NCBI GenBank assembly: GCA_016937345.1
Contig: JAFGWE010000032.1
Span: 62,001-126,000, forward strand
Source: Methanomicrobiaceae archaeon
Lineage (GTDB): Archaea > Halobacteriota > Methanomicrobia > Methanomicrobiales > Methanomicrobiaceae
Length of the DNA: 64,000 nt
Reading direction: 5' to 3'
A program made the translations under genes and the position numbers. Under the pieces are notes generated by a model, which saw only the letters and a program-made list of their open reading frames with translations, was not told the origin of the DNA and did no database searches. Below, piece by piece: positions 41,200 through 52,104 of the stretch. Within the stretch, counting starts at the first letter, position 1. The number at the start of each line of letters is the position of its first letter.

Positions 41200-43269
41200 T
41201 TATTTCCGGGTTTTTCCGGTTTTTTCATATGGCTGAAAACCGGTACGGCCTTTGGGAGTGCTTTCCCTGTCATGTGTCCGTTCCTGCTTTCTCTTTTGAC
41301 TGCCTGTTGGTTTTCTCTCGGTTTTTTTGTCTGTCCTTACAGGTCTTTCAGATCTTTCCGGTTTGGAGTATTCTGTCTTTCTTCCGGAATTATATGGCCT
41401 GTCAGTTTGTCCCGGGGCTCTTTCAGTTCTTCTTTGTGCTCCGGCAGGTCTTTCAGCTCTCTGGTACTCGGATTTCCTCTCGGCTGAGTATGGTCTTTCT
41501 GTTCTTCCTGTTGTTCTGGGTCTTTCCGATTTCTGGTATTCGGATTTCCTCTCGGCTGAGTATGGCCTGTCTGTTCTTCCTGTAGTTCTGGGTCTGTCTG
41601 ATTTCTGGAATTCTGACTTTCTCTCAGCTGAATATGGCCTATCTGTTCTTCCTGTAGTTCTGGGTCTGTCTGATTTCTGGAATTCTGACTTTCTCTCAGC
41701 TGAGTATGGCCTATCTGTTCTTCCTGTTGTTCTGGGTCTGTCTGATTTCTGGTATTCGGATTTCCTCTCAGCTGAATATGGCCTATCTGTTCTTCCCTGT
41801 GTTCTTGGTGGTCTGTCTGATCTCTGGAATTCTGACTTTTTCTCAGCTGAATATGGCCTATCTGTTCTTCCCTGTGTTCTTGGTGGTCTGTCTGATCTCT
41901 GGAATTCTGACTTTCTCTCAGCTGAATATGGCCTATCTGTTCTTCCCTGTGTTCTTGGTGGTCTGTCTGATCTCTGGAATTCTGACTTTCTCTCCGAAGA
42001 ATACGGTCTGTCAGATTGTCCTGCAGGTCTTAACGATCTTTCGGGTTTGTATGATCTGTCCCTGTTCTCTCCGTATTTAGGCCCTTTAGATTGTCCTGCC
42101 GGCCTTAATGATCTCTCCGGTTTGTATGACCTGTCCCTGTTCTCTCCGTATTTGGGCCCTTCAGATTGTTTTGTGGTTCTGCCCGGTCTCTCTGCCTTAT
42201 GGGATTCTCTTTTTTTCCCTGTATATTCCCGCTTTTCTCCTTTTTTTGAGGATTTAGCAGGTCTGTCTGATTTATGGTAATTCGCCATTTCCTCTGCCTC
42301 TTTTGGTTTTTCTTCCTTTTCTTCTGTCTCTAACTGTTTTTTTTCCCTGTAGTCGTGCTTTGTCCAGCCTTTTTCATATGTGCCCCTCTTCATCACAACA
42401 GCCTGAGGTGCGACAACGAATCCGGTATCACCGGGCTTATACTCTTCAGATGATATGAGTGCCTTTCCTATGCAGACAAGCTCTCCCTTTTCGGTTACGA
42501 CAGCAACCCTTGAATCCCGTTTGCAGCTCTCTTTTGAGACCACTCCGACGCCTGCAAGAAGTGCACCGCTGCATACTGCCTCAACCGCAGAATCGCGGAT
42601 CATTACAACCGGAATCTCGGACACGAGTCTTTCAACCGGAAGAATCATCTTTTTGAGCTCTTCCGGGTTTCCTTCCCCTGCAAAGACATAAGCGTCCTTT
42701 AAATCCTGGAGTGTGCAGGTATCAGGCAGTCCCAGTGAGCCGGACCGTGAACGCCGAAGCTCCTCCATCTGGCCGCCGACACCCATTGCAAGGGCAAGAT
42801 GGGTGCACAAAGAGCGTATATATGACCCTGCCTCACAGGCTACTTTTAAGAGAACAAGCCTGTCTTTAAAGTCCAGAATTTCGATATCATATATTGTCCT
42901 TATTCTGAGCTGGCGGCGGACAGCGCTTTTCCGGGGAGGTCTCTGGTAAACACGGCCGCGAAATTCCTCTGCAACCCTGTAAACCTCGTCTTTGTCAACA
43001 TCGCCGTGAAGCCTTAAAACCGCGATATACTCTTTTCTGTGCTTTAGAATTACAGGTGCAAGTCTGACGGCACGTCCGAGCATTACTATAAGAACGCCGG
43101 AGACCATCGGGTCAAGTGTTCCTCCGTGGCCTATTCTTTGCTCTCCGCCTAAAATCTCCTTGACCCAGGCTGTAACCTGATGGCTTGAAGGCCCCTGCGG
43201 TTTGTCAACCGCTATTATGCCGCACTCCAAAAGCTCTTTTAATTCCGGATCTTCTATTGACTGACTCAT
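41200..43269 (-). CDS. cbf5: tRNA/rRNA pseudouridine synthase Cbf5 with giant repetitive tail
   Basis: Cbf5 is the catalytic subunit of H/ACA RNPs and also makes pseudouridine 55 in archaeal tRNA. The TruB-type domain (about 15-205) has the catalytic Asp53 in HGGTLDPMVSG; the PUA domain spans about 212-296. Archaeal Cbf5 usually ends near residue 330. Here about 390 more residues follow: a Lys/Glu stretch (about 310-345), two 25-residue repeats (369-418), eight related 24-25-residue repeats (419-614) and a basic end. The tail is very rich in Arg, Lys, Ser, Asp, Pro and Tyr and surely disordered. The frame is intact, and the ORF is in phase with the conserved core. Confidence 0.95.
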   Translation of the reverse strand: MSQSIEDPELKELLECGIIAVDKPQGPSSHQVTAWVKEILGGEQRIGHGGTLDPMVSGVLIVMLGRAVRLAPVILKHRKEYIAVLRLHGDVDKDEVYRVAEEFRGRVYQRPPRKSAVRRQLRIRTIYDIEILDFKDRLVLLKVACEAGSYIRSLCTHLALAMGVGGQMEELRRSRSGSLGLPDTCTLQDLKDAYVFAGEGNPEELKKMILPVERLVSEIPVVMIRDSAVEAVCSGALLAGVGVVSKESCKRDSRVAVVTEKGELVCIGKALISSEEYKPGDTGFVVAPQAVVMKRGTYEKGWTKHDYREKKQLETEEKEEKPKEAEEMANYHKSDRPAKSSKKGEKREYTGKKRESHKAERPGRTTKQSEGPKYGENRDRSYKPERSLRPAGQSKGPKYGENRDRSYKPERSLRPAGQSDRPYSSERKSEFQRSDRPPRTQGRTDRPYSAERKSEFQRSDRPPRTQGRTDRPYSAEKKSEFQRSDRPPRTQGRTDRPYSAERKSEYQKSDRPRTTGRTDRPYSAERKSEFQKSDRPRTTGRTDRPYSAERKSEFQKSDRPRTTGRTDRPYSAERKSEYQKSERPRTTGRTERPYSAERKSEYQRAERPAGAQRRTERAPGQTDRPYNSGRKTEYSKPERSERPVRTDKKTERKPTGSQKRKQERTHDRESTPKGRTGFQPYEKTGKTRK
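41428..42015 (-). repeat. Coding tandem repeat, eight 72/75-bp units
   Basis: Eight copies encode units such as TDRPYSAERKSEFQ followed by SDRPPRTQGR or SDRPRTTGR. Copies 1-3 are 25 codons with PPRTQGR, copies 4-7 are 24 codons with PRTTGR, and copy 8 is diverged (AERPAGAQRR). Neighbouring copies are more alike than distant ones, as expected from recent unequal crossing-over. The period is a multiple of three, so copy changes keep the frame. It lies within the cbf5 tail (residues 419-614). Confidence 0.95.
42016..42165 (-). repeat. Coding tandem repeat, two 75-bp units
   Basis: Two almost identical 25-codon units (GPKYGENRDRSYKPERSLRP followed by AGQ) directly before the eight-copy array, in cbf5 residues 369-418. 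They share the R-x-Y-x-x-E-R spacing with the larger array and may be its older relative. Confidence 0.92.
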
Positions 43270-43275
43270 ATCAAT

Positions 43276-43956
43276 TCATTTTTTTTTCAGGTATTCGTTT
43301 AAGGCCAAAAGCGTGCCTTCAAGGGAGCCGTCCCCTGTTACAAGCGGTCGAACCCCGCTTTCTATCATCCTCTGTGCTGTGACATCCCCGATTGCAGCGG
43401 GAATTATATTTTGATTTTTGTCCCACACAGAATATGTAAATGAATTGGCGCTGGTAAACAATATAACATCACACCCGCCAAGCTGAAGTTTCTCATCTGT
43501 GGGTTCAAGCGAGTAGATGGAAAACTCGTGTGCAATCCCTCCGTTATCCTCAATTGCGCTGATAAGGCCGGGATTAGGAACCTCTGCCCTTGGGATTCCT
43601 ATATTTTTTCCGTATATCCATTCACCAAGATAAGGGACAAAATCGCGTGAATAAAATGTCGGAAGTGTTTCGCATTTTATACCAAAATTATTGAGGGTTT
43701 TTGCAGTCTGGGGGCCGATTGCAATAACTCTGGGCCATTTTTCAAGAAGAGGCCCTATTGACTGTGCAGGAAGGGCACTTGTAAAAAATATGCAGTCAAA
43801 TTCATTTCTGTTGACCCTTGCAGCAAAATCCAGAACCCTCTCTGTATATATTTTTGCCTCCATTGGGGATACTGCCCTGCACTCATGGCCGTATTTTTTG
43901 CAGAGCTCTGTATCCTTTCCTGCCTTCTCCTTAAGGCGGGTTACTGCAATCATCAT
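43276..43956 (-). CDS. hemD: Uroporphyrinogen-III synthase
   Basis: HemD closes and inverts hydroxymethylbilane to uroporphyrinogen III, the precursor of coenzyme F430, siroheme and cobamides in methanogens. The family is poorly conserved; recognised parts are the N-terminal AVTRLKEKAG, the central IFFTSALPAQ (FTS motif), AIGPQTAKTLNNFG and DVILFTSANSF. The length of 226 residues is normal. It lies six bases before cbf5 on the same strand, so both probably share a transcript. No other tetrapyrrole gene is in the window. Confidence 0.88.
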   Translation of the reverse strand: MMIAVTRLKEKAGKDTELCKKYGHECRAVSPMEAKIYTERVLDFAARVNRNEFDCIFFTSALPAQSIGPLLEKWPRVIAIGPQTAKTLNNFGIKCETLPTFYSRDFVPYLGEWIYGKNIGIPRAEVPNPGLISAIEDNGGIAHEFSIYSLEPTDEKLQLGGCDVILFTSANSFTYSVWDKNQNIIPAAIGDVTAQRMIESGVRPLVTGDGSLEGTLLALNEYLKKK

Positions 43957-46368: not shown

Positions 46369-46508
46369 AAACTTATCCGGATATTTTTGCCAGAACCGGC
46401 TGGTTCTTACAAATTGTGGTGATCTCGTATATTATTTTTCCGGCGTGATTTATGTGGGCATTTTTATGAACATTTAATGCCGGATTGCAGACAGATAAGA
46501 TAACAATT

Positions 46509-47378
46509 ATGCAGTACTGGTTTGGGGATATAAATCCTGACGGGAGCTGTGTCCCGGTAAAAGGAGAAATAAAAGAATTTGCTGCACATTACCGCGATAC
46601 AGACTTTGATATGGATAATTTCGTGCCGCTCTCACCTGAAGATGCGGTAAATTGCGGTGCCGTAAAAGACCAAGATGAATACCTCGAAAAACTTCGCCTG
46701 CTCTGCATTGCTCTTGCTGAAGAGAAGATTCGTGCACATTATACTAAAGGCGACATTGAGCTTGTCCAGATGGTGAGGATGCTTGATGAGATGGACCATG
46801 TCATAAACCTCTTAATTGAGCGTGCAACCGAGTGGTATCTCGTTTTAAACCCAAAATTTTCAAGAAAATACAAATCAGTCAGTGCAAAGCAGATGGTTGC
46901 GATAATAAGGCGTGAGAAGACTTCTCTTGGCAGACTCGGGTATGAGATTGACAGGATGTCATCTGAAAGAACACGTCTTATGAAGGAGATTTCATCCCGT
47001 ACAGATATTATTGCGCCAAACTGCAGTGCTCTTGTAGGCGGGCTTGTTGCAGCAAGACTCATTTCCAAAGCCGGAAGCCTCGCCCAGATGTCAAGGATGC
47101 CTGCGTCTGCTATACAGGTTTTAGGAGCCGAAAGCGCTCTTTTTACCCACTTAAAAGGAAATACACCCTCGCCAAAACACGGGATTATCTTCCAGCACAG
47201 AAGGGTTCACAATTCAAAGGCGAAAGTCCGTGGCAGGGTATCAAGGGTTCTTGGAGGAAAGCTTGCAATTGCCGCAAAACTTGATTATTTCAGGGGGGAA
47301 CTAGTTCCTGAGTTTATTGACCCGGCGCAAAAGAGGATCGATTATGTATTCTCACTTGGAGAGGAGAATAAAAAATGA
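46509..47378 (+). CDS. nop5: C/D-box RNP scaffold protein Nop5 (short form)
   Basis: Nop5 bridges the C/D guide RNA-L7Ae complex and fibrillarin in 2'-O-methylation of rRNA and tRNA. The N-terminal fibrillarin-binding domain starts MQYWFGD, and the C-terminal NOP domain is strong (APNCSALVGGLVAARLIS, then QVLGAESALFTHL and KHGIIF). The middle coiled coil looks much shorter than usual: about 40 residues (130-175) instead of about 100, and the total is 289 residues versus about 380-410 in Pyrococcus or Methanocaldococcus. I use ATG 46509, since family members start there; a TTG at 46485 is possible. The stop overlaps the flpA start (ATGA). Confidence 0.93.
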   Translation: MQYWFGDINPDGSCVPVKGEIKEFAAHYRDTDFDMDNFVPLSPEDAVNCGAVKDQDEYLEKLRLLCIALAEEKIRAHYTKGDIELVQMVRMLDEMDHVINLLIERATEWYLVLNPKFSRKYKSVSAKQMVAIIRREKTSLGRLGYEIDRMSSERTRLMKEISSRTDIIAPNCSALVGGLVAARLISKAGSLAQMSRMPASAIQVLGAESALFTHLKGNTPSPKHGIIFQHRRVHNSKAKVRGRVSRVLGGKLAIAAKLDYFRGELVPEFIDPAQKRIDYVFSLGEENKK

Positions 47379-47980
47379 TAATTATTGACGGTGTTTTGGT
47401 TTCAAAAGGGCAGGGGGGAGTTTACGGCGAAAAGATGATGAAAGGGTACAGGGTCTGGTCCCCCAACAGAAGCAAGTTTGCCGCTCTTGCAATGATTCGC
47501 CCGGGTACTGATCTTAACCCTGATTTGAAGGTATTATATCTGGGAGCTGCAAATGGAACCACGGTTTCCCATTTTGCAGATTATGTGAACTGTGTATATG
47601 CGGTTGAGTTTGCACCGCGTCCCATGCAGGATTTAATTGAGGTCTCAAGGAGAAGAACAAACATTATACCCATAATGGCTGATGCCGGAAATCCCCGTGA
47701 ATATGCTCCTTTTGTAGAATCCGTTGATATGGTTTACCAGGATGTGGCACAGCCAAACCAGGCTGAAATTGCTATAATGAATCTTCCCTTCCTGAAAAAA
47801 GGCGGCATCCTCATACTTATGCTTAAGACCAGAAGTGTTGATGTAACAGTAAGCCCGAAGACTGTCTTTTTAGATACCTTAAAAGAGCTTGAAGAGTCCG
47901 GACTTGAAATTGAAGATGCATGCTGGCTTGAACCTTATCATCATGATCATGCATGCATCATCTGCCGGAAAAATTCATAA
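47375..47980 (+). CDS. flpA: Fibrillarin-like rRNA/tRNA 2'-O-methyltransferase
   Basis: FlpA is the methyltransferase subunit of the C/D RNP and uses SAM. Conserved parts are VYGEKMM, the SAM-binding VLYLGAANGTTVSH, AVEFAPR, DVAQPNQAEI and the Lys in MLKTRSVD. The 201-residue length is slightly below the 225-230 of other archaea because the N-terminus is short. It is co-translated with nop5, the standard archaeal arrangement. Confidence 0.95.
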   Translation: MIIIDGVLVSKGQGGVYGEKMMKGYRVWSPNRSKFAALAMIRPGTDLNPDLKVLYLGAANGTTVSHFADYVNCVYAVEFAPRPMQDLIEVSRRRTNIIPIMADAGNPREYAPFVESVDMVYQDVAQPNQAEIAIMNLPFLKKGGILILMLKTRSVDVTVSPKTVFLDTLKELEESGLEIEDACWLEPYHHDHACIICRKNS

Positions 47981-49527: not shown

Positions 49528-52104
49528 ATGACGAGTAAAAAATTTGGAATAGCACTGTTATCTCTGTTAGTGCTTGCATTATTATTCCTGGCGACACCTG
49601 TATCAGCTAAAACAGTGTCTGATGGACTTACTAATATATCAGCCGGAGATACAGTATTTCTTGGGGAAGCAGGCCTCAATGTATCATCTGCAGTGCCAAA
49701 TGCTGCAGGAACAATCTGCTGGTATTCGTATGCGGATGCAGCACCTGATGTATTAACAATCAGTGATAAAAATTCATTCTCTATCACTGGAGCAAGCTTT
49801 GCAGGAAAACTTGGTACATGGTACAATGGTTCTACTAAAGACAGTGGGAATCTCGCACCAGCAAACAATGTTGCATTTGTTGTAGCAGATCCAAGCCTCA
49901 GCAATGTTCTTATTACTGATGTCACTGCAGCCAATGCAGATGTCACAGGAAAATCAGTAATTGCAGGTGATGTTTTAAAGATTACATACCAGACAAATCT
50001 GCAGACACTTATTACACAGCGTAATCTTACAGGTCCAATGGACTTGAATGATGACCACATTGCAGCAGGTACTGGTTCAGGTTTAATTTGTAAGGTTAAG
50101 ACCCCTGACGGAGCAATTCTTAATGGGTTATATGGTGATAACAAATTAAACGGACCTGGAATAACAATTCCTTTGTCAAACCTTACGCCAGTAAACAGCG
50201 TATATTCAATCCTGAACACGACCAACAATATGCTGTCAGTCTGGAACACTTCTTACAGTGCATATCCGTCAGGTACATATGAGGTCTGGTTTGAATCATC
50301 AATCAACGATATGGACACATATTATGGTTCAATCACTGGAAAGACCATATCCTCGGTTGCAACTGTTACAATCGCAAAAGAGACTGTAACAATAACCGCA
50401 GACAAAGAAACAGTTATCCGCAACAACCCGTTCTCAGTAACTATCGAAGGTAAACCTAAGACAGATTACTTCGTGTGGATTAAAGGAATCAGCACCTATA
50501 ACAACAAGACCGGCTTTGCTGATATGGCACCATACTTCACACAAAACCAGAAAGATGTCAATCCTGTAAACTACCAGGCAGCTAAGCTTATTGTTTATTC
50601 AGGTACAACAACAACAATCGGATCTGATGTTCCTGTTGAAAACGGAACTATCTTCTGGGTTGTAAATGCTACAACAAGTTCTTCCGGTACAGCTACAATT
50701 TCCCTCTCAACCGATGGAAATACAAAGGCAGCTGTTTACACAATCCGTGCAGCAAAGAGAACATCTGACTCAGCAGCTAACGATCAGCTCTATGACACTG
50801 TAAAGGTAAAAGTCGAGAAGGGAGCAGTAACTATAACAGCATCCGGAGACGGTTCCTACTATCTTGGTGAGGAAATAACTATCTCAGGTACTGACACAGA
50901 TACAGATAATGTCTATCTCTTTATTACAGGACCAAACCTTCCGGTTAATGGAGGACAGATAACAGCTCCTGCAACAGCAGGCACCACAATGGTTAATGTT
51001 AAGACAGACGACACCTGGGAATACAAATGGAGTACTTCCGGTGTAACTCTTGACGCAGGTACATACACAATCTATGCTTCATCAAAGAACGTCCAGAAAG
51101 ACGGACTTTCAGAAGCTAAGTATGACACAGTTTCAATTGTTATCAAAAAGCCGTTTGTAACAGCAACCACATCTGCATCAACAGTAGCAAAGGGTGACAA
51201 GCTCTACATCCGCGGAACAGCAGAAGGCAACCCAACACAGGGTGTAGCAATCTGGGTACTCGGAAAGAACTACTGGAATGGTAAGACTGACTTAATTGCT
51301 GTTACAGAGACCGTTAACGATGACGGTTCATTCGAGTACGAAATGGGAACAGCAGATACAAAGGATCTTGCATCAGGACAGTACTTCGTAGTTGTCCAGC
51401 ACCCGATGTACAATGACAGATTTGATGTTTATTCTGATGCAGCAACCCCAACCAGAATATTGACTCAACTTGCCGGAGCAGCAGCACAAAACTCAGAATT
51501 CATTATCTGGGGAGCAGGAAAACTCCAGGGATCTGACGCTGCACAGGCACTTACAGACTCAATCGATTCAGCCGACATTGATGATACCTACACCAAGCTC
51601 ACATTCTTAGTTGAAGAGCCATGGATCAGGATCAATTCAGTCGGTGACCACTATGTGGGTGACGTATTCAAAGTCTCAGGTACAACAAACCTCGCTGTCG
51701 ACGATGACCTGATTGTTGAAGTTACATCTTCATCATTCCAGCCAACACAGAAGACACAGAGCGGAGAGTTCTCCGGTGTATCTCAGACTGTAAAGGTCAC
51801 ATCAGGCGATTCATACAATGAATGGGCAATGGACGTAGATGCATCAACCTTCAAGCCAGACGAGTACATAGTAAACGTTGAGGCAATTGAAGCAGACTGC
51901 ACTGCAACCACAACATTCAATGTCCTTAAGGGTGCAGCACCAACAACTTCACCTGGAACACCAACAACCGGTCCAACAACCGCACCAACAACCGGTCCAA
52001 CAACCGCACCAACACCTGAGCCAACAGCATCACCAGGATTTGGAGCATTTGTTGCACTCATCGGCCTTGGCGCAGTAGCTGCACTGGTTATGAGAAAGGA
52101 CTAA
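49528..52104 (+). CDS. Major S-layer protein candidate, PGF-CTERM anchored
   Basis: An 858-residue exported protein with a signal peptide (FGIALLSLLVLALLFLATPVSA). The N-terminal domain resembles DUF3821 of Methanomicrobiales surface proteins. Four Ig-like repeats of about 110 residues follow (openings include VTITADKETVIRNN, VTITASGDGSYYLGE and VTATTSASTVAKGD). A Thr/Pro-rich stalk (TTGPTTAPTTGPTTAPTPEP) ends in PGF and a final membrane helix with MRKD, the archaeosortase-processed PGF-CTERM signal. Many NxS/T sites allow glycosylation. Codon use is biased to GCA, ACA and AAG, the ribosome site AAGGAGG is near ideal, and the leader is structured, all fitting a highly made protein. Confidence 0.9.
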   Translation: MTSKKFGIALLSLLVLALLFLATPVSAKTVSDGLTNISAGDTVFLGEAGLNVSSAVPNAAGTICWYSYADAAPDVLTISDKNSFSITGASFAGKLGTWYNGSTKDSGNLAPANNVAFVVADPSLSNVLITDVTAANADVTGKSVIAGDVLKITYQTNLQTLITQRNLTGPMDLNDDHIAAGTGSGLICKVKTPDGAILNGLYGDNKLNGPGITIPLSNLTPVNSVYSILNTTNNMLSVWNTSYSAYPSGTYEVWFESSINDMDTYYGSITGKTISSVATVTIAKETVTITADKETVIRNNPFSVTIEGKPKTDYFVWIKGISTYNNKTGFADMAPYFTQNQKDVNPVNYQAAKLIVYSGTTTTIGSDVPVENGTIFWVVNATTSSSGTATISLSTDGNTKAAVYTIRAAKRTSDSAANDQLYDTVKVKVEKGAVTITASGDGSYYLGEEITISGTDTDTDNVYLFITGPNLPVNGGQITAPATAGTTMVNVKTDDTWEYKWSTSGVTLDAGTYTIYASSKNVQKDGLSEAKYDTVSIVIKKPFVTATTSASTVAKGDKLYIRGTAEGNPTQGVAIWVLGKNYWNGKTDLIAVTETVNDDGSFEYEMGTADTKDLASGQYFVVVQHPMYNDRFDVYSDAATPTRILTQLAGAAAQNSEFIIWGAGKLQGSDAAQALTDSIDSADIDDTYTKLTFLVEEPWIRINSVGDHYVGDVFKVSGTTNLAVDDDLIVEVTSSSFQPTQKTQSGEFSGVSQTVKVTSGDSYNEWAMDVDASTFKPDEYIVNVEAIEADCTATTTFNVLKGAAPTTSPGTPTTGPTTAPTTGPTTAPTPEPTASPGFGAFVALIGLGAVAALVMRKD

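Follow-up and report, generated by a model that had tools for sequence, protein, structure and literature searches.

Yeast Cbf5 possesses an IDR of about 90 residues (residues 392–483) that is based on Lys-Lys-Glu/Asp and is known as the KKE/D tail (PMC11528048). Reconstituted yeast particles are active without this tail, whereas association with the rDNA and the modification of part of the sites require it; mixed with RNA, the tail peptide forms coacervates in vitro (PMC11528048). The range of kappa reported for eukaryotic Cbf5 tails is 0.1–0.4, and the 2024 description of the yeast protein states such extensions to be absent from archaeal snoRNPs (PMC11528048). The archaeal Cbf5 proteins of known structure (2HVY, 3LWO, 2APO) end at the PUA domain and comprise 327–357 residues; the protein investigated here agrees with them in its full core, catalytic motif, PUA domain and family, but continues for 382 residues. 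These structures are those of Pyrococcus and Methanocaldococcus Cbf5. The gene in question, cbf5, encodes an H/ACA pseudouridine synthase with a C-terminal tail (689-aa ORF; 41200–43269, reverse strand) and is located in a stretch of 64,000 nucleotides of a Methanomicrobiaceae archaeon (contig JAFGWE010000032.1, positions 62,001–126,000; referred to as the window, to which all coordinates refer). Papers on the Cbf5 of Methanomicrobium were not found in a literature search.

The window protein is a member of the archaeal Cbf5 family, as documented by family models, catalytic motif, PUA domain and the presence of Nop10 and Gar1 in the genome. Its residues 7–305 matched the NCBIfam model NF003280 with 375 bits (E = 2e-112), and TIGR00425 matched the same 689-aa protein with 337 bits (E = 1e-100); both scores exceed the curated cut-offs (242 and 238 bits, respectively) over the core and bear out the gene assignment of an earlier, sequence-only reading, while the TruB model stayed below its own cut-off. 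The enzyme core (residues 1–307; 42349–43269, reverse strand) is complete and consists of the Pfam domains DKCLD, TruB_N with the catalytic GTLDP motif, TruB_C_2 and PUA, the last (E = 1e-12) ending near residue 290. The catalytic Asp of this motif, D53, was invariant across the sequences of 37 relatives; the nearest solved structures for the core were 3LWO and 2HVY (E = 2e-79), both of Pyrococcus Cbf5, and in the AlphaFold2 model the pLDDT of the core was mostly above 90. The activity of the window protein is presumably the same as that of archaeal Cbf5. Nop10 scored above cut-off in all six Methanomicrobium genomes, and Gar1 was found in all six (above cut-off in three, just below it in the window's genome); since both partners are present throughout, the H/ACA particle is otherwise ordinary. 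Pus10 was likewise present in 6/6 genomes, so that tRNA Psi55 has its own enzyme and should not depend on Cbf5: a takeover of this position by Cbf5 is unlikely.

The neighborhood of cbf5 includes the box C/D proteins Nop5 and fibrillarin, which are encoded at a distance of 3–5 kb (46485–47980, forward strand) and lack a charged tail; such tails were sought on Gar1, Nop5 and fibrillarin, and none was seen. The Rfam search over the window returned four tRNAs only and no H/ACA guide RNA. Upstream of cbf5, hemD (uroporphyrinogen-III synthase; 43276–43956, reverse strand) lies in the same frame, separated by the stop and two codons (43269–43278). No stop codon separates hemD from cbf5 in several genera of Methanomicrobiales, where the two make up one HemD-Cbf5 frame (L025, L027 and L057 of genus g23; L043 and L044 of genus g6; L040 and L049 of genus g34); Pfam HEM4 and TruB/PUA were detected in a single frame of L057 and L044, and there is no Met between the HemD and Cbf5 domains of L025 and L057. 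No paper mentioning HemD and Cbf5 together was found in a literature search. A further gene of the window (49528–52104, forward strand) encodes a protein of 858 aa, which has a Thr/Pro-rich stretch towards its end (PTTSPGTPTTGPTTAPTTGP...), is hydrophobic at the C-terminus and looks like a surface-layer protein anchored to the cell surface.

The tail comprises residues 308–689 (41203–42348, reverse strand) and, as the sequence-only reading had it, is longer than the enzyme (382 versus 307 residues). Its proximal part (residues 308–368; 42166–42348, reverse strand) is Lys/Glu-rich and non-repetitive, with a short predicted helix at 307–319. It is followed by two type-B repeats of 25 residues each (S[EK]GPKYGENRDRSYKPERSLRPAGQ; consensus SxGPKYGENRDRSYKPERSLRPAGQ; 42016–42165, reverse strand) and by eight main repeats of 24–25 residues, of type TDRPYSAERKSEFQRSDRPPRTQGR ([ST][DE]RPYS[AS]E[RK]KSE[FY]Q[RK][SA][DE]RP...; 41428–42015, reverse strand). 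TRF resolved a 72-bp array (7.1 copies, 93% matches, score 739) and a second array with a period of 75 bp (2.1 copies). Several earlier statements on this array proved accurate: the number of eight units plus two related ones, now located, the loss of one codon in copies 4–7 (24 residues, compared with 25 in copies 1–3 and 8), and the expansion and contraction in frame, the changes comprising whole codons; that adjacent copies are most alike was mostly the case, copies 2/3 and 5/6 being one base apart. Through the array, the aromatic residues alternate between spacings of 8 and 16–17. The distal tail (residues 615–689; 41203–41427, reverse strand) consists of degenerate repeats and a Lys/Arg-rich end and terminates in GFQPYEKTGKTRK, inside which the C-terminal motif FQPY (residues 678–681; 41227–41238, reverse strand) is common to two other Methanomicrobium species. 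As the window's genome is a draft of 52 contigs, the exact copy number is uncertain.

The whole tail contains 11% Lys and 18% Arg. In the AlphaFold2 model, everything beyond about residue 340 lacks secondary structure and has a pLDDT mostly below 50, and the disorder suspected beforehand is thus predicted; the Pfam search of this tail and of that of M. mobile gave no domain match. Among the low-complexity segments in 1.10 of the 2.10 Mb of the genome, the Cbf5 tail was the longest (score 251; next independent frame 59), so that a disordered tail is not a proteome-wide habit. Elsewhere in the same genome (G000), tandem arrays occur with periods of 177 (6.8 copies; L137:17994-19185) and 462 (4.1 copies; L095:11548-13476). 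Perfect tandem repeats with units of 11 or 12 bp occupy exactly the first 87 bp (positions 1–87) of the contigs L089, L090 and L105; they have the look of an artefact introduced by the assembler at the ends of contigs.

The repeats themselves carry a record of selection. Over all pairs of the eight main copies, pS was 0.404 and pN 0.088 (pN/pS 0.22); these pairs are not independent of each other, but the direction of pN < pS is clear. Variable columns among the main repeats were distributed 8/4/17 over codon positions 1/2/3, and the 8 base differences between the two type-B copies 1/0/7. A 317-aa frame on the opposite strand of the array (41327–42280, forward strand) was rejected as a gene, given that the variation falls at third codon positions when read in the Cbf5 frame; such a frame arises because the repeat period is divisible by three. 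Between M. mobile (L060) and the MAG of a sister species, RGIG1551 (L062), dN/dS amounted to 0.056 for the core and 0.196 for the tail, and all 24 gap columns of the tail alignment were in frame; the comparison with RGIG7908 gave tail values of 0.25–0.32. These patterns indicate a coding tail under purifying selection at the protein level that is weaker than that on the core. Because pN/pS and dN/dS are low, the tail is probably translated, its sequence mattering less than that of the core.

Tails were found in 6/6 available Methanomicrobium species, each represented by one genome (including the isolate M. mobile BP, RGIG1551 and RGIG7908). After the PUA domain, the protein extends for 382 residues in the window species, 113 in G114, 139 in G118, 318 in G116, 328 in M. 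mobile and at least 175 in G117, where the contig ends. In the tree, the six tailed species constitute one clade (support 100/96), and the sister G103 has 3 residues. The C-termini of Cbf5 were read directly in 76 genomes of Methanomicrobiales and compared with those of about 75 non-Asgard archaea from outside the order; the latter set comprised 15 archaea of other groups, 30 phylum members from a profile search and 30 more, which include lineages taken by us for haloarchaea and whose larger raw values stem from alignments that had stopped inside the protein. Apart from one further genus, the other Methanomicrobiales read directly have tails of 1–52 residues, and short basic low-complexity ends of 12–52 residues occur in several genera; outside the order, no Cbf5 tail of more than 25 residues was seen among the about 75 archaea. 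The long tail as a common archaeal feature is ruled out by this census. The earlier statement that archaeal H/ACA proteins lack such tails therefore holds insofar as the tail is very unusual, but not strictly, since basic tails of 12–52 and of about 100 residues exist elsewhere.

The exception is a second Methanomicrobiaceae genus (g6) with tails of 93 and 112 residues (L043/G110 and L044/G106, respectively). These are Lys/Gly/Pro-rich with the common stretch KSL[RH]PGPKRRP..SK.YL.TSKNG.RRG, and the tail of a third genome of this genus (L144) measures only 6 residues. Sequence and tree position suggest a separate gain. Long Cbf5 frames in other genera (480–980 aa) were discarded as upstream reading or in-frame HemD, genus g6 excepted. 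On this distribution, the tail is ancestral to Methanomicrobium as a whole, explained most simply by a single gain at its base. Being genus-wide and under purifying selection, it is not an accident of one genome.

The tails could not be aligned between Methanomicrobium sub-clades. The repeats are confined to the window species; its sister species are without these units, and the sequences of the relatives differ while their charge is similar: All Methanomicrobium tails have a pI of 9.8–10.6, an NCPR of +0.06 to +0.20 and an FCR of 0.38–0.46. The net charge of the M. mobile tail is +21 over 328 residues, and Asp and Glu make up 17–20% of the two long tails, which are thus strongly polyampholytic and not simply cationic. 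Kappa was 0.055 for the window tail and 0.14–0.16 for G114, G118 and M. mobile, absolute values being approximate because an own approximation of the maximum was used; none of 500 shuffles reached the evenness with which the charges of the window tail are mixed. Two species have Lys-rich tails and four Arg-rich ones: Those of G114 and G118, which are shorter, contain 21% Lys and are aromatic-poor, and the M. mobile tail is of an R/G/D/Y type with 20 RG/GR pairs and 37 close Arg-aromatic pairs. FQPY together with basic residues is situated within the last 20 residues of the G000, G114 and G118 tails, and in a shuffling control a 4-mer was common to the three tail ends in 4/200000 shuffles; the motif VIKPN, common to G118 and M. 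mobile, was dismissed as not significant (172/2000 shuffles). The stretch around VLSKAAAYKPRKAYETG.KSYASELLDRQYKREIIRGTTAEGIDASEYSLSEDFVSNKNRRES hardly differs between M. mobile and RGIG1551 (dN/dS of 0.086 in that quarter of the tail) and contains a predicted 16-residue helix (model residues 533–548). The Cbf5 proteins of the M. mobile group (L060, L062) also have an N-terminal extension of roughly 30–50 residues.

The favored reading, to which we assign a probability of about 0.5, is that the tail acts as a multivalent RNA-contact tether of low specificity that would hold the H/ACA particle near rRNA; RNA contact and tethering are inferred from the yeast KKE/D tail. In the Methanomicrobium ancestor, a normal archaeal Cbf5 gene would have gained a disordered, basic, polyampholytic C-terminal arm, which in the window species may have been lengthened by in-frame duplication of the 72/75-bp unit. 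Its Arg/Lys and Tyr/Phe side chains, placed at regular intervals, could then contact rRNA precursors or neighboring guide RNAs and raise the local concentration of H/ACA particles at the substrate, while catalysis and guide binding would remain in the folded core. Such a tether is supported by the complete core with its invariant D53 and by Gar1, Nop10 and Pus10 in all six genomes; by a tail that is apparently selected, retained in every species, always net positive and predicted to be disordered; and by the precedent of a yeast tail that is dispensable in vitro and needed at the rDNA. What speaks against a simple tether is the polyampholytic nature of the tail and a composition rich in Arg/Ser/Lys/Pro/Tyr, whereas yeast KKE/D tails are Lys-rich; moreover, the FQPY end and the M. 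mobile helix suggest protein docking as well. The sequence-only reading had named RNA binding, the tethering of many guide RNPs and condensate formation as possible roles.

Docking is indeed the strongest rival to an RNA-contact arm, although unlikely on balance: The tail would be a platform on which conserved motifs bind a ribosome-assembly factor, an RNA helicase or RNA polymerase, the low-complexity parts serving as spacers. The motifs in question would be the terminal FQPYxK and, in the M. mobile group, the conserved helical segment and the C-terminal block. The persistence of FQPY at the very end of three otherwise unalignable tails fits this explanation, as do the low dN/dS of the VLSKAAAYKPRKAYETG.KSYASELLDRQYKREIIRGTTAEGIDASEYSLSEDFVSNKNRRES segment and its predicted helix; but the motifs vary between sub-clades, the known-domain search gave no match, and the sequence of the window array is maintained with no folded element in it. 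The same conservation of the end motif, together with retention in 6/6 species, a tail dN/dS of about 0.2–0.3 and the pN/pS among the copies, makes a nearly neutral elaboration improbable, in which a stop codon was lost, slippage lengthened the tail, and selection acted on solubility or disorder only, with no specific work for the tail. The more than threefold range of length within the genus (113–382), the fast turnover of sequence, the species-specific repeats and the ready expansion of low-complexity DNA would be accounted for in this way, but not that half of the same genome contains no comparable tail.

Still less probable is a condensate scaffold, in which the Arg/Tyr repeats would phase-separate Cbf5 or the H/ACA particle with RNA into a nucleolus-like focus. 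Arg-Tyr contacts in the window tail are possible, and the strict aromatic spacing of 8/16–17 with Arg nearby, the RG/GR and Arg-aromatic pairs of the M. mobile tail and the coacervates of the yeast peptide with RNA (PMC11528048) point in this direction. Condensation is nevertheless the weaker supported, because the charges are evenly mixed, the aromatics modest (7–10%) and the GAR-domain partners absent on the side of Gar1 and fibrillarin: Charge mixing beyond all shuffles in evenness, with a kappa of 0.055 versus 0.1–0.4 in eukaryotes, disfavors block-charge self-association as a driver, and the tails of G114 and G118 are short and aromatic-poor. An artefact of assembly or annotation, with the array or the tail absent from the real protein, is scarcely conceivable. 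Near-identical 72-bp copies in a draft are prone to collapse, but five other genomes, among them that of the isolate M. mobile BP and the single-contig G114, have long tails of their own, by which an assembly artefact is ruled out, and selection has maintained the open frame. The wider proposition that archaeal H/ACA independently evolved a disordered, repeat-built Cbf5 arm, by which its components would be gathered at nascent rRNA or within a condensate in the manner of the eukaryotic nucleolar tails, is tentative; if true, the reasons for the evolution of snoRNP tails could be examined in a prokaryote that acquired one by convergence.

Compared with known systems, the closest functional analogue of the Methanomicrobium tail appears to be the yeast KKE/D tail. 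Like the Lys-rich tails of yeast Cbf5 and human dyskerin, it is placed on the same enzyme and at the same end, and it is highly charged, net positive, repetitive and predicted to be disordered; the window tail has the disordered extension (pLDDT < 50), the high FCR (0.46) and the positive NCPR (+0.126) of the KKE/D type. In contrast, it is longer (382 versus about 90 residues), of Arg/Ser/Lys/Pro/Tyr rather than Lys-Lys-Glu/Asp composition without the Lys doublets, and its charges are evenly mixed (kappa 0.055, approximate) instead of blocky (0.1–0.4); the tails of G114 and G118 share the Lys-rich composition and the blockiness. Many RG and Arg-aromatic pairs liken the M. mobile tail to the GAR/RGG domains of eukaryotic Gar1 and fibrillarin, but it is located on Cbf5, has many Asp/Glu mixed in and contains no RGG repeats. 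The short basic ends of other Methanomicrobiales have the same position, basic character and low complexity at lesser length, and the tails of G106 and G110 are unrelated in sequence. Common descent with the KKE/D tail is contradicted by the sister genus and the about 75 archaea without a long tail: Because the archaeal relatives outside the genus lack it, the Methanomicrobium tail probably arose separately and is to be regarded as convergent with, not homologous to, the eukaryotic Cbf5 tails. Methanomicrobium thus represents an exception to the general picture of Cbf5, a whole genus with long, charged, apparently disordered and selected tails in nucleus-free cells, so that what a tail does for RNA modification can be studied there independently of localisation to the nucleus and of nucleolar structure; with its short and long tails and a sister that has none, the genus offers a natural series of lengths. 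What is new is the tail as a variant of archaeal Cbf5 that resembles the eukaryotic tail in position and electrostatics.
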